From a virus, in the IMG/VR virus record IMGVR_UViG_3300028394_000354, positions 1-21,371 of that record: a stretch of 21,371 nucleotides of DNA. The stretch is one strand, 5' to 3'. The translations under genes and the position numbers were made by a program. A model generated the notes under the pieces. The model was given only the letters and a program-made list of their open reading frames with translations. It had not been told where the DNA came from and ran no database searches. Positions 6,047 to 21,371 of the stretch are shown piece by piece. The first letter of the stretch is position 1; every line of letters starts with the position of its first letter.

Positions 6047-6074
6047 AAAAAACGCCCCAATAAGGAGCGTTTTT
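6047..6074 (-). terminator. Rho-independent terminator after the tail-tube gene
   Basis: Arms 6052-6058 and 6064-6070 with a 5-nt loop form a 7-bp stem, extended by A/T pairs and followed on the minus strand by a T6 run. One position is a C-A mismatch as plus-strand RNA but a U-G wobble as minus-strand RNA, so the hairpin is built for minus-strand transcripts. It lies 22 nt after the 6096 gene end. Confidence 0.75.
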
Positions 6075-10658: not shown

Positions 10659-13038
10659 ATTGTACTACTGGTATTTTTATTTCGGTTTCTACTCCATTTA
10701 AATAATATTGTAAAGCTAACGAGTCACTGCGCTCAATTCCCGAAGTGTTTGCAGGAATAGTTACCTCAATAATAATATCGACGTCGTTGTCTGAGCTTAG
10801 TGGATAAGTTAAAAAACCGCCTGATGCAACCACATTAAAAGTATCGTAATTATTGCGGTAAATTATAAACTCAACTTTTTGAGCCGTGTTGTCAACTTGC
10901 ATAACCATAATATTTGCATAGCGCAAGTAGGTTGTGTTTTCGGTTATATCTCTAAAATCGTTGATTAATTCCAAATTGACTTCGCCTGTTGTGAGGTCGG
11001 TAGTCATGGTATTAATTAAATAGCGTTTATTTGATAAAATAATACGATCATTTAGATTTATTGATGTCAACAAATTAGTGTTAAAATGCGCCTTCGCTTT
11101 TACAACTCTTGTTCTTTGGTTGTATAAATTATTTATGTAATTAGAATAAAATTGCTGATATAAACCATTTGGCGCAATATCTAAATTCCAAACTGAATTT
11201 TCAACTCCCCAGTTTAGAGTTTGCAAATAATTTAAATCACTTGCTCCAAGCTCAATTTCGTTTGAAAATCTTTGATAAGCAGGCAAATGAAAATCTAATC
11301 CTGAAGGCGTGTCTTTTAACCAATAATAATTAGCAGTAGTTGGATAAAAACTAACTCGGTTATTGTCATATAATAAAACAGGCTTAGGAGTATATGGTTG
11401 CCTATCTTTATTCCAACAGGTAGCAGTTAAAAAATCAGTTCCTGTTGTACGCTCGTACATAATATCTTCAAAAGGTGTTTTAACTTCGTAATTTGTCGTA
11501 AATGCTGAATTTTCATTGTCATAAAACAAATTGCCATACTCCTGGTTGTCGTTAAAATCTCTAAAATTTGTATTTAAAATATTATCAGATTTTTCGTGTT
11601 TAAAATCTAACTTTTTAAACAAATTTGGTTTTGCAATTTCTATATTCTCAGCCTCAACAAATTCAGTTATATTAATTTCATTGCCATTTTGATACCATAA
11701 TTCAAGTGGTAAAAATTCAAATTCAGTTTCACTTGTTGGTATAATAACCATATTAAACATTTTAACTAATCCTGTAATAAAATCGTTTACCGTAATATCA
11801 GGAATAAATTTTTGAACATTTAATAAAGCTAAAGACGTAGTTGGTGTAGGTGTATATAATGCATAGCTATTTGTATAACCTGTATTTTGTTGAACAAATT
11901 CCACCATTAAATCAGTTTCAAAAGTGAAAGTTGTAAGCTCGTCACTATTTACAAAAATGGTAAAATTATAAGTATCGCTAAACGGCCCAACTCTATAAAA
12001 AAATGAACGATAACTAATATTTCCGCTTTGGTTTAAAAAAGAGGTGTAAAGCGTTCCGTTATTGTAAATATAAACATTGTAATTTGTTGAAGCGGTAGTT
12101 ATAAAAAAATAAACTTTTTGACTCCAAACAGGGTCTAAATTTGTTGGAGGTCCTATAAAATTATAAAAAGGGACAAAGTTAATTGTTAAAGTATTATTTG
12201 GTAAAGGTAAACCCGTACTTCCATATTCTAAATTAGATTGTACTAACTCGGTTTTAGTACTCATTTCATCGCTATTTTTGCAATATAAATATAGCTTGCT
12301 AAATGTTTGACTATTTAAAAACTCTCCTGTAAAATTTAATCCGTAGGCTGATTGTATATATTCAAATATTTTTGAAATTTTTATTGCAGGAAATAATTCA
12401 GTATATTCAATTGCACCACTTAGCAAAGTAATATCATTGTCTATATTGCCTGTTTGATACTCAAATCGTCTTGTATTCCCAATTAAGGGGAACATTACGT
12501 CATATGAACCATAACCTAATAATTTTTGGGAAATTTCGTAAGATGAATATTCAAAATTTAATTCGTTGTAATAACTTAATCCGTTTGAATTTTTTAAACT
12601 ATTTAATTTGTCCTCCTTAAATTTGTCTTTAAGTTGCACCAAATTACCTACGAAATTAATCGTATATGATTCTATAAAACCGTTTTTCTTATTGGCTTTG
12701 TCCATTGTAAACTTACCATCTCGAAAAGGAATAGTGTCAATCTCAATAAATCCAAAATACTTTATTCTATGGTCAAACGCACCGATTACATTTTGTGGCA
12801 AATCTAAATCAGTTTCTCCCACTGCCGATTCATACCAATGGCGCAAAACGGAGTTGTTATGTTTGCTCGCTGGTATTGTAAACGACTGCGAGTAATCAGT
12901 AAATAATTTACCGATATCATTAAAATTTTGAACGCTTGAGGTAACGCTGATTTTCTCGTCGTTAAATAACTCAATTCGGTGCGCTACTGGAACTCCCTCG
13001 GCATCGTCTACGTAAATATATAATTGAACATTTTGCAT
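10651..13038 (-). CDS. Large distal-tail / baseplate hub-like protein (795 aa)
   Basis: A strand-rich 795-residue protein. The start MQNVQLYIYVDDAEGVPVAH is followed by an N-terminal domain containing DIGKLFTDYSQSFTIPASKHN (about 41-61) and VLRHWYESAV. This phrase recurs at the same place in large tail proteins encoded before or beside the tape measure in Bacteroidota phages, as far as I recall. Later parts have many aromatic residues (runs such as FYNFIGPPTNLDP), an HEKSDNILNTNF segment and a C-terminal strand region (LNDRIILSNKRYLINTMTTDLTTGEVNLELIND) like the last domain of hub/Tal proteins, where coordinates are set by ring closure. It is very AT-rich compared with its neighbours. It starts 1 nt after the 13040 gene and is coupled to the 45-codon gene. 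It probably forms the tail tip to which the fibre complex attaches. Confidence 0.6.
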   Translation of the reverse strand: MQNVQLYIYVDDAEGVPVAHRIELFNDEKISVTSSVQNFNDIGKLFTDYSQSFTIPASKHNNSVLRHWYESAVGETDLDLPQNVIGAFDHRIKYFGFIEIDTIPFRDGKFTMDKANKKNGFIESYTINFVGNLVQLKDKFKEDKLNSLKNSNGLSYYNELNFEYSSYEISQKLLGYGSYDVMFPLIGNTRRFEYQTGNIDNDITLLSGAIEYTELFPAIKISKIFEYIQSAYGLNFTGEFLNSQTFSKLYLYCKNSDEMSTKTELVQSNLEYGSTGLPLPNNTLTINFVPFYNFIGPPTNLDPVWSQKVYFFITTASTNYNVYIYNNGTLYTSFLNQSGNISYRSFFYRVGPFSDTYNFTIFVNSDELTTFTFETDLMVEFVQQNTGYTNSYALYTPTPTTSLALLNVQKFIPDITVNDFITGLVKMFNMVIIPTSETEFEFLPLELWYQNGNEINITEFVEAENIEIAKPNLFKKLDFKHEKSDNILNTNFRDFNDNQEYGNLFYDNENSAFTTNYEVKTPFEDIMYERTTGTDFLTATCWNKDRQPYTPKPVLLYDNNRVSFYPTTANYYWLKDTPSGLDFHLPAYQRFSNEIELGASDLNYLQTLNWGVENSVWNLDIAPNGLYQQFYSNYINNLYNQRTRVVKAKAHFNTNLLTSINLNDRIILSNKRYLINTMTTDLTTGEVNLELINDFRDITENTTYLRYANIMVMQVDNTAQKVEFIIYRNNYDTFNVVASGGFLTYPLSSDNDVDIIIEVTIPANTSGIERSDSLALQYYLNGVETEIKIPVVQYA

Positions 13039-20840: not shown

Positions 20841-20917
20841 TATAAAACAAACACCCCTCAATTGACCGCCAAGTGCAAAAGAGAGGTGTTGTTAGTTGTG
20901 TGTTTTCTCTTGGCGGT
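20841..20917 (-). ncRNA. Candidate structured small RNA / attenuator
   Basis: Two 10-bp stems are interleaved. Stem 1 pairs 20909-20918 with 20864-20873, perfectly. Stem 2 pairs 20881-20890 with 20850-20859, with nine Watson-Crick pairs and one G-U wobble in minus-strand RNA. That position is a C-A mismatch on the plus strand, which supports minus-strand transcription. A TGTTTTATAT stretch follows the last arm, as in a terminator. The predicted start (about 20917) from the promoter at 20921-20952 falls at the first base or two of stem 1, as for a designed RNA end. The stems interleave as a pseudoknot would, but the 4-nt loop joining them seems too short to span 10 bp, so competing hairpins (a switch or terminator/antiterminator) are more likely. 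No known RNA family is recognised. Confidence 0.45.
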
Positions 20918-20920
20918 CGT

Positions 20921-20952
20921 CAAATATAATTAAAGTTTTTTAAATATCGCAA
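20921..20952 (-). promoter_or_regulatory. Bacteroidota-type promoter (-33/-7)
   Basis: On the minus strand TTG (20952-20950), a 21-nt spacer and TATATTTG (20928-20921) match the TTG/TAnnTTTG consensus exactly. It overlaps the last codons of the helicase gene. The expected start, a few bases after the box, is near 20917. It would drive the structured RNA and possibly the small-gene operon. Confidence 0.65.
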
Positions 20953-21371
20953 GTGTGAAGTCTTTTTTTTGTTGCACGGTCTTATAAATATCGTATTCGA
21001 TGCCGCCTTTTGAAAATATCCAAAAGACCTCGTTTTCTTGTCGCTGCATTGTGGTCATTCGATCACGGCTTTGCCAGTAACTCGTAGCACTAAAATCAAT
21101 GTTATAGTAAACCAAATACTTTGCGTTTTTTAAACTGACTCCCTCGCGGCCGCTGACTATTTGTAAAGCGATATTTTTATCGGTTGCGTCAAACTCCTCG
21201 ACTGAATTTGTCAAGTAATCGGCTCCAAATACTTGCAGCAGCGCGTCCCATTCGGCCTTGAATTTATAAAAGATTGCGATTTTCTCGCCTTGAAACTTCT
21301 CCTTTATAAACCTGGCCTTTGAGTCGTCAATTACTTTGCTGGTGCCGTCCTCAAACTTACAAGTCCCGCTT
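20930..21371 (-). CDS. C-terminal part of an SNF2-like helicase (partial)
   Basis: The 5' end lies outside the window. 146 codons are visible, from the window edge to the stop at 20932-20930; the frame is open through the TTG at 21214, which is not the true start. The C-terminal RecA-like domain of a superfamily 2 helicase is visible: KIAIFYKFKAEWDAL (motif IV region), then ATDKNIALQIVSGREGVSLKNAKYLVYYNIDFS (motif V with the G-x-G-x-x-L core) and SYWQSRDRMTTMQRQ (motif VI with Q-x-x-x-R-x-x-R-like spacing). This SNF2-type arrangement is known from phage replication helicases, commonly followed by a VRR-NUC nuclease, as here after a 200-bp gap. It probably remodels branched DNA in replication or recombination. 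Confidence 0.85.
   Translation of the reverse strand, partial: SGTCKFEDGTSKVIDDSKARFIKEKFQGEKIAIFYKFKAEWDALLQVFGADYLTNSVEEFDATDKNIALQIVSGREGVSLKNAKYLVYYNIDFSATSYWQSRDRMTTMQRQENEVFWIFSKGGIEYDIYKTVQQKKDFTLAIFKKL

Follow-up and report, generated by a model that had tools for sequence, protein, structure and literature searches.

A promoter-linked leader with two interleaved stems at the start of a phage operon, and similarly shaped leaders with unrelated sequences

What might two interleaved stems directly behind a promoter do at the start of a long phage operon? The question is raised by the window, i.e. the whole stretch of viral DNA that was analysed (21,371 nt; IMG/VR record IMGVR_UViG_3300028394_000354), whose minus strand holds, from 20952 to 20843, a promoter of the Bacteroidota sigma-A type, two interleaved 10-bp stems (S1 and S2) and a U-rich tail. 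The promoter had been described in the initial annotation as a full match, and the sequence match was confirmed: TTG (20952-20950), N21 and the -7 box TATATTTG (20928-20921), together spanning 20921-20952 on the minus strand. In every aligned homologue the -7 box reads either TATATTTG or TACATTTG. As the -7 element occupies positions -12 to -5 in F. johnsoniae (PMC6847099), transcription is predicted to start at about 20916-20917, the outer end of S1; a start at this end had been proposed before, and the position rule, with a predicted +1 at ~20916, agrees with it. In a second, diverged clade of homologues the predicted +1 is exactly the first A of ACCGCCAA. The promoter type, together with related Flavobacterium phages, points to a host of the Bacteroidota type.

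Read along the minus strand, the predicted RNA has at its 5' end the 5' arm of S1 (GACCGCCAAG, 20918-20909; the core kept in homologues is ACCGCCAA), followed by the linker L1 (18 nt, AGAAAACACACAACTAAC, 20908-20891), the 5' arm of S2 (AACACCTCTC, 20890-20881), L2 (TTTTGCA, 20880-20874), the 3' arm of S1 (CTTGGCGGTC, 20873-20864), which lies within the S2 loop, L3 (AATT, 20863-20860; 5-7 nt of the form CAATY in homologues), the 3' arm of S2 (GAGGGGTGTT, 20859-20850) and the tail TGTTTTA (20849-20843), which adjoins S2 and has the counterpart TTTATTTTTT in the second clade; past the 3' arm of S2 the window reads TGTTTTATA. S2, including its single G-U pair, and the T-rich stretch behind it were found as described earlier, and a terminator-like tail is supported. 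S1 had been placed correctly, but its outermost G-C pair is not conserved, so that the conserved helix comprises 8-9 bp. The description of L1 as an accessible A/C-rich loop lacking G and U did not hold: AGAAAACACACAACTAAC contains one G and one U, and since L1 differs among homologues in sequence as well as in length (11-17 nt, counted up to a 12-nt S2 segment), such an accessible loop is not conserved. The 80-nt stretch folds better than its shuffles (z -2.25); folded separately, S1 and S2 each beat 200 of 200 shuffles (z -3.2 and -4.3, respectively). ViennaRNA, which cannot draw pseudoknots, favours S2 plus a small extension, in which UUG of L2 can pair with CAA after S1 and close a small loop around the 3' arm of S1; UUG and CAA are kept in nearly all copies. 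S2 escaped a simple terminator scan, since the S2 loop lies above that scan's size limit. A -1 frameshift signal at the helicase end (an A-rich run before the stems) was considered and rejected, the phase being wrong and the spacer too long.

Using the VRR-NUC and helicase genes as leads to related IMG/VR contigs, we parsed 84 copies of the element in related phages, window included. Near-identical copies occur in 35 related contigs, and the second clade, first met behind more distant helicases, adds 47 copies plus that of L507, the sole true addition from a relaxed viral scan. With regard to strong copies in long contigs, 23 of 26 records hold one full-length copy, one holds a copy at the contig end and two hold none. 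No copy of the window's sequence family was found in standard phage records; a broad pattern (GACCGCCAAG..AACACC) and one genome-contig scan gave apparent chance matches in unrelated genomes. In the alignment of 25 distinct sequences of the window's family (A1), S2 shows 96% pairing, and both partners have changed in 4 of its pairs; its pairing percentage, both-side changes and covariation score were each reached by 0 of 500 shuffles, which identifies S2 as an RNA helix, and, since the copies all come from one phage group, the covariation amounts to few independent events. S1 (8 bp in A1) is 100% paired and 7 of its 8 pairs are invariant, so that covariation is no test of S1 in this family; here its predicted pairing is supported by the complementarity of the arms and by analogy with the sister families. 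The covariance check of both stems suggested in the initial annotation thus came out positive for its S2 half, with compensated changes, next to invariant S1 arms.

One sister family, the HNH leader, is broader than the window's family. In an alignment of 20 sequences (A4) it has two hairpins joined by an AU-rich linker, with apical loops that are complementary over 7 nt. All four helices covary: both partners have changed in 15 of 22 pairs, pairing is kept in 99.1% of cells, and the covariation score is 0.483 compared to 0.129 in shuffles, while slid controls collapse. The loop-loop helix itself is 100% paired, with 3 of 7 pairs covarying. Hairpins and loop-loop helix of this type can coexist, which speaks against S1 and S2 simply excluding each other in the RNA of the window. 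The competition between the two stems that had been put forward is not supported, as their arms do not overlap and sister families can form all helices together; no antiterminator sharing an arm with the terminator-like S2 was seen. In the NUMOD4-HNH leaders (L610-L689), the second hairpin is interrupted by a conserved internal loop, UGAU/UGAU, in which tandem G-A pairs could form.

The shared architecture comprises a promoter, a 5' arm, a hairpin with a loop pairing back to this arm, a U tract and a start codon. Searching 1385 distinct -7 boxes in related loci for the pattern S1a-L1-S2a-L2-S1b-L3-S2b-U tract, we found it at 61 of them, compared to 0 of 1385 dinucleotide shuffles. Pattern matching did not assign 22 of the 61 to the window's family, one of which (L049) is nevertheless a variant of that family. 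When the U tract was dropped from the requirements, 96 real matches were obtained, as against 44 in two shuffled sets, no shuffled score exceeding 23.6, and the strong promoter-linked matches still had U tracts and a nearby ATG, barring opposite-strand readings. A VirE-like replication gene is preceded by differing leader types in different phages (AGTGGTAG, AACTTCGACA, CATCTAC, GCTCAAC), other leader families precede NUMOD4-HNH and GIY-YIG endonuclease genes, and about 27 contigs (matched by contig name) have a VirE-gene leader in addition to a member of the window's family. Besides endonuclease genes, it is thus the first gene of helicase/VirE operons that has such a leader in front of it. 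Among isolated phages, the HNH leader is present in 34 Flavobacterium phage records (strains LMO6/LMO9) with ~91% identity; the covariance model R3 detects it in Mumin and Stinky (E 6e-18), and in mumin6-1 the leader's ATG is the annotated endonuclease start (11765). A second leader (GTGGAACG or GTGAGACG types), a relative of which occurs in V156, lies ahead of replication genes in mumin6-1 and Stinky9-1, and FCL-2 has a CATCCAC member before CDS 37596. In mumin6-1 the two leaders span 11674-11767 and about 12710-12820. Shuffled phage genomes gave zero leader matches, and no convincing member was seen in FPSV-S2, BK687P1, the first half of crAss001 or MW202828.

The gene neighbourhood varies. 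In the window the upstream neighbour is the C-terminal part of an SF2 helicase gene (20930-21371, minus strand), cut by the window end. The operon opens with a 28-aa ORF (MKYILIFVIYEMIRPNLIKLFHYIISKL, 20811-20725) whose stop overlaps the next start (ATGA), that of the VRR-NUC nuclease gene (20728-20474), which is itself the first gene behind the leader in four homologues. This small ORF (MKYILIF...HYIISKL) is below the usual gene-calling size; homologues of it come first behind 17 of the 84 leaders, and it looks like a conserved small phage protein. Clustering the neighbours of the 84 copies gave about nine groups upstream (SF2 helicase, several DNA methyltransferases, HNH, GIY-YIG) and 14 for the first downstream ORF, one of them spurious (inside a tRNA-like sequence), i.e. 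about 13 unrelated families. With genes varying on both sides, promoter and RNA behave as a module. Just upstream of the promoter, four relatives (L003, L010, L012 and L014) have a canonical terminator (CTCGTATGCCAGTACGAG with a T run behind it, or of the ATCTCGTATGCCAGTACGAGATTTTTTTT type), so that the downstream genes need the element's promoter or a later one. In L010 this terminator is preceded by a promoter box TATATTTG and about 40 nt, possibly a second small RNA or an operon end. A 106-nt tRNA-like sequence directly follows the element in L003 (2640-2745) and L014 (2798-2903), and also in L018 and L020; it has a 7-bp acceptor (TAGTCAG/CTGACTA) and the T arm CAGGTTCGAATCCTG, and the L003 copy begins like tRNA-Leu. 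ARAGORN reports nothing here in its default mode; when introns are allowed, it calls a tRNA-Ile with an intron in L003. Elsewhere in the window, the minus strand holds a canonical terminator (ACGCTCCTTATTGGGGCGT-TTTTTG, 6053-6071) between the ORFs 6620-6096 and 6014-5706.

Leader structure and leader position are well supported by these data; the function has to be judged from the U tract and its distance to the start codon. In the second clade the gap from S2 to the ATG is always 12-19 nt, whatever the ORF, and the last 15 nt before the ATG are 72% T (37% in 357 background ORFs). In the window's clade the gap ranges from 7 to 44 nt, and is 127 nt in L003 with its tRNA-like insert. The U tract keeps next to S2 even where the ATG is 26-44 nt away, and in Mumin and Stinky the ATG lies at a distance of >20 nt. 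A stable hairpin with an adjoining U tract is present upstream of the first gene, with exceptions in the L575 and L593 groups: among the kissing-loop relatives the U tract is weak in L593, L598 and L603 and absent in the L575 group. These same kissing-loop leaders, located before the VirE-like gene, have no obvious promoter box nearby. As the U tract tracks the hairpin and not the ATG, we rate a conditional intrinsic terminator most likely and propose, with slightly less than even confidence, that the element is a cis-acting 5' leader of the phage operon in which S2 and the U tract form such a terminator, tethered to the RNA 5' end. Transcription would start at the outer end of S1, and the first 8-10 nt would pair with the S2 loop in an H-type pseudoknot (in sister families, a 7-bp loop-loop kiss of two hairpins); S2 is followed directly by the U tract and soon after by the first start codon. 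S2 and U tract would thereby act as an attenuator, its strength presumably set by tethering of the 5' arm to the S2 loop, and the tethered or untethered state, through a release of the tether, may gate transcription into the operon. Against termination stands the size of the S2 loop, 21-23 nt being long for a terminator.

The missing or weak U tracts of the relatives also imply that termination is not the whole function of the class, and they place a translational or stabilising role close behind. The pseudoknot would then shield the mRNA 5' end and offer an unstructured U-rich initiation region at the AUG, without termination at S2 and the U tract, in a host that does not use Shine-Dalgarno sequences. 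The 12-19 nt spacing kept in every second-clade copy despite unrelated ORFs fits this role, as do the L575- and L593-type leaders, which keep their structure close to the ATG and have hardly any U tract or none; likewise, structure in the translation initiation region tunes translation in F. johnsoniae (PMC6847099), and a pseudoknot is reported to help standby translation of tisB (PMC7708055). We nevertheless regard this role as less likely, because in the window's clade the spacing is loose while the U tract stays with S2, and because the region before the start is U-rich, whereas F. johnsoniae prefers A-rich initiation regions. Processive antitermination of the HK022 put kind, in which the folded leader would ride on RNA polymerase so that the enzyme reads through the long operon downstream, would suit an RNA of ~75 nt that directly follows an early-type promoter and starts more than one operon per phage, as well as the 20.8 kb of co-directional sequence downstream, near the start of which the element is the only full minus-strand promoter match (three others are far downstream). 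It appears improbable given that unrelated sequences fill the architecture, while putL and putR share sequence, that one would not expect an antiterminator to have a U tract right behind its last stem, and that second-clade phages have more promoter matches 0.2-0.8 kb downstream.

Much the same low probability applies to a stand-alone, trans-acting small RNA of ~75 nt ended at S2, with variable accessory genes dropped in behind it. Freely varying neighbours, invariant S1 and loops, and one strong copy per long contig would agree with such an RNA; on the other hand, most copies have a start codon right behind the U tract, L1 is not conserved, and leaders of the same shape and unrelated sequence swap before the same gene, which fits action in cis better than a sequence-specific target in trans. 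Least credible, and hardly to be entertained, are DNA-level inverted repeats for a repressor with no role for RNA: the S1 arms do form an invariant inverted repeat from about +1, but S2 covaries with G-U pairs, the S1 arms lie at distances that differ by 1-6 nt and show no helical phasing, and the crossing helices of the HNH family covary as a folded RNA would. Of the two options in the initial annotation, small RNA or leader switch, the operon leader is therefore the better one, the small RNA being less likely and the switch by stem competition not retained.

The occurrence of one shape in unrelated sequences, before other operons and endonuclease genes, makes a built-in gate on phage gene expression the probable role of that shape. 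More generally, and again at somewhat under an even chance, Bacteroidota phages may repeatedly build a gate defined by shape, with the 5' end kissing or knotted into the loop of a terminator-like hairpin, as a standard switch for early operons and homing endonucleases. How these phages time and limit gene expression is poorly known, and their hosts have an unusual sigma factor and non-Shine-Dalgarno translation. A recurring leader that is recognisable by shape independently of sequence would give annotators a marker of operon starts and experimenters a compact, testable element; since Mumin and Stinky (on Flavobacterium sp. LMO6/LMO9) and FCL-2 are isolated phages that have it, direct tests are possible.

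With 4227 Rfam models at gathering threshold the window gave no match (best PK-repZ, 18 bits versus a gathering score of 44), nor did 16 related loci, and no description of such a leader was found in the open-access literature searched. Classical attenuators and intrinsic terminators likewise have a promoter-proximal hairpin and U tract ahead of an operon's first gene; in the window's leader, however, neither an overlapping antiterminator arm nor a leader peptide was seen, and the terminator-like hairpin has the RNA 5' end as the predicted partner of its loop. In type III toxin-antitoxin systems, a promoter is followed by a small pseudoknotted RNA (ToxI), a terminator-like element and an ORF. 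The window's element has the same order, but it is a single unit where ToxI repeats, and its downstream genes are diverse, none being recognised from sequence as a ToxN-type nuclease. The pseudoknotted translational leaders of tisB and rpsO also have a 5' UTR pseudoknot near the start codon, whereas here the host presumably does without Shine-Dalgarno sequences, a U tract adjoins the last stem, and members share shape but not sequence. HK022 put is a promoter-proximal RNA of ~70 nt with two stem-loops (PMC9378689), and the likeness to it lies in the size (about 70-75 nt), the position directly after phage promoters at operon starts and the purely RNA nature; compared by that description, put consists of two stem-loops of shared sequence, whereas the leader has a U tract behind a pseudoknot or kissing loop, and its members are unrelated in sequence.
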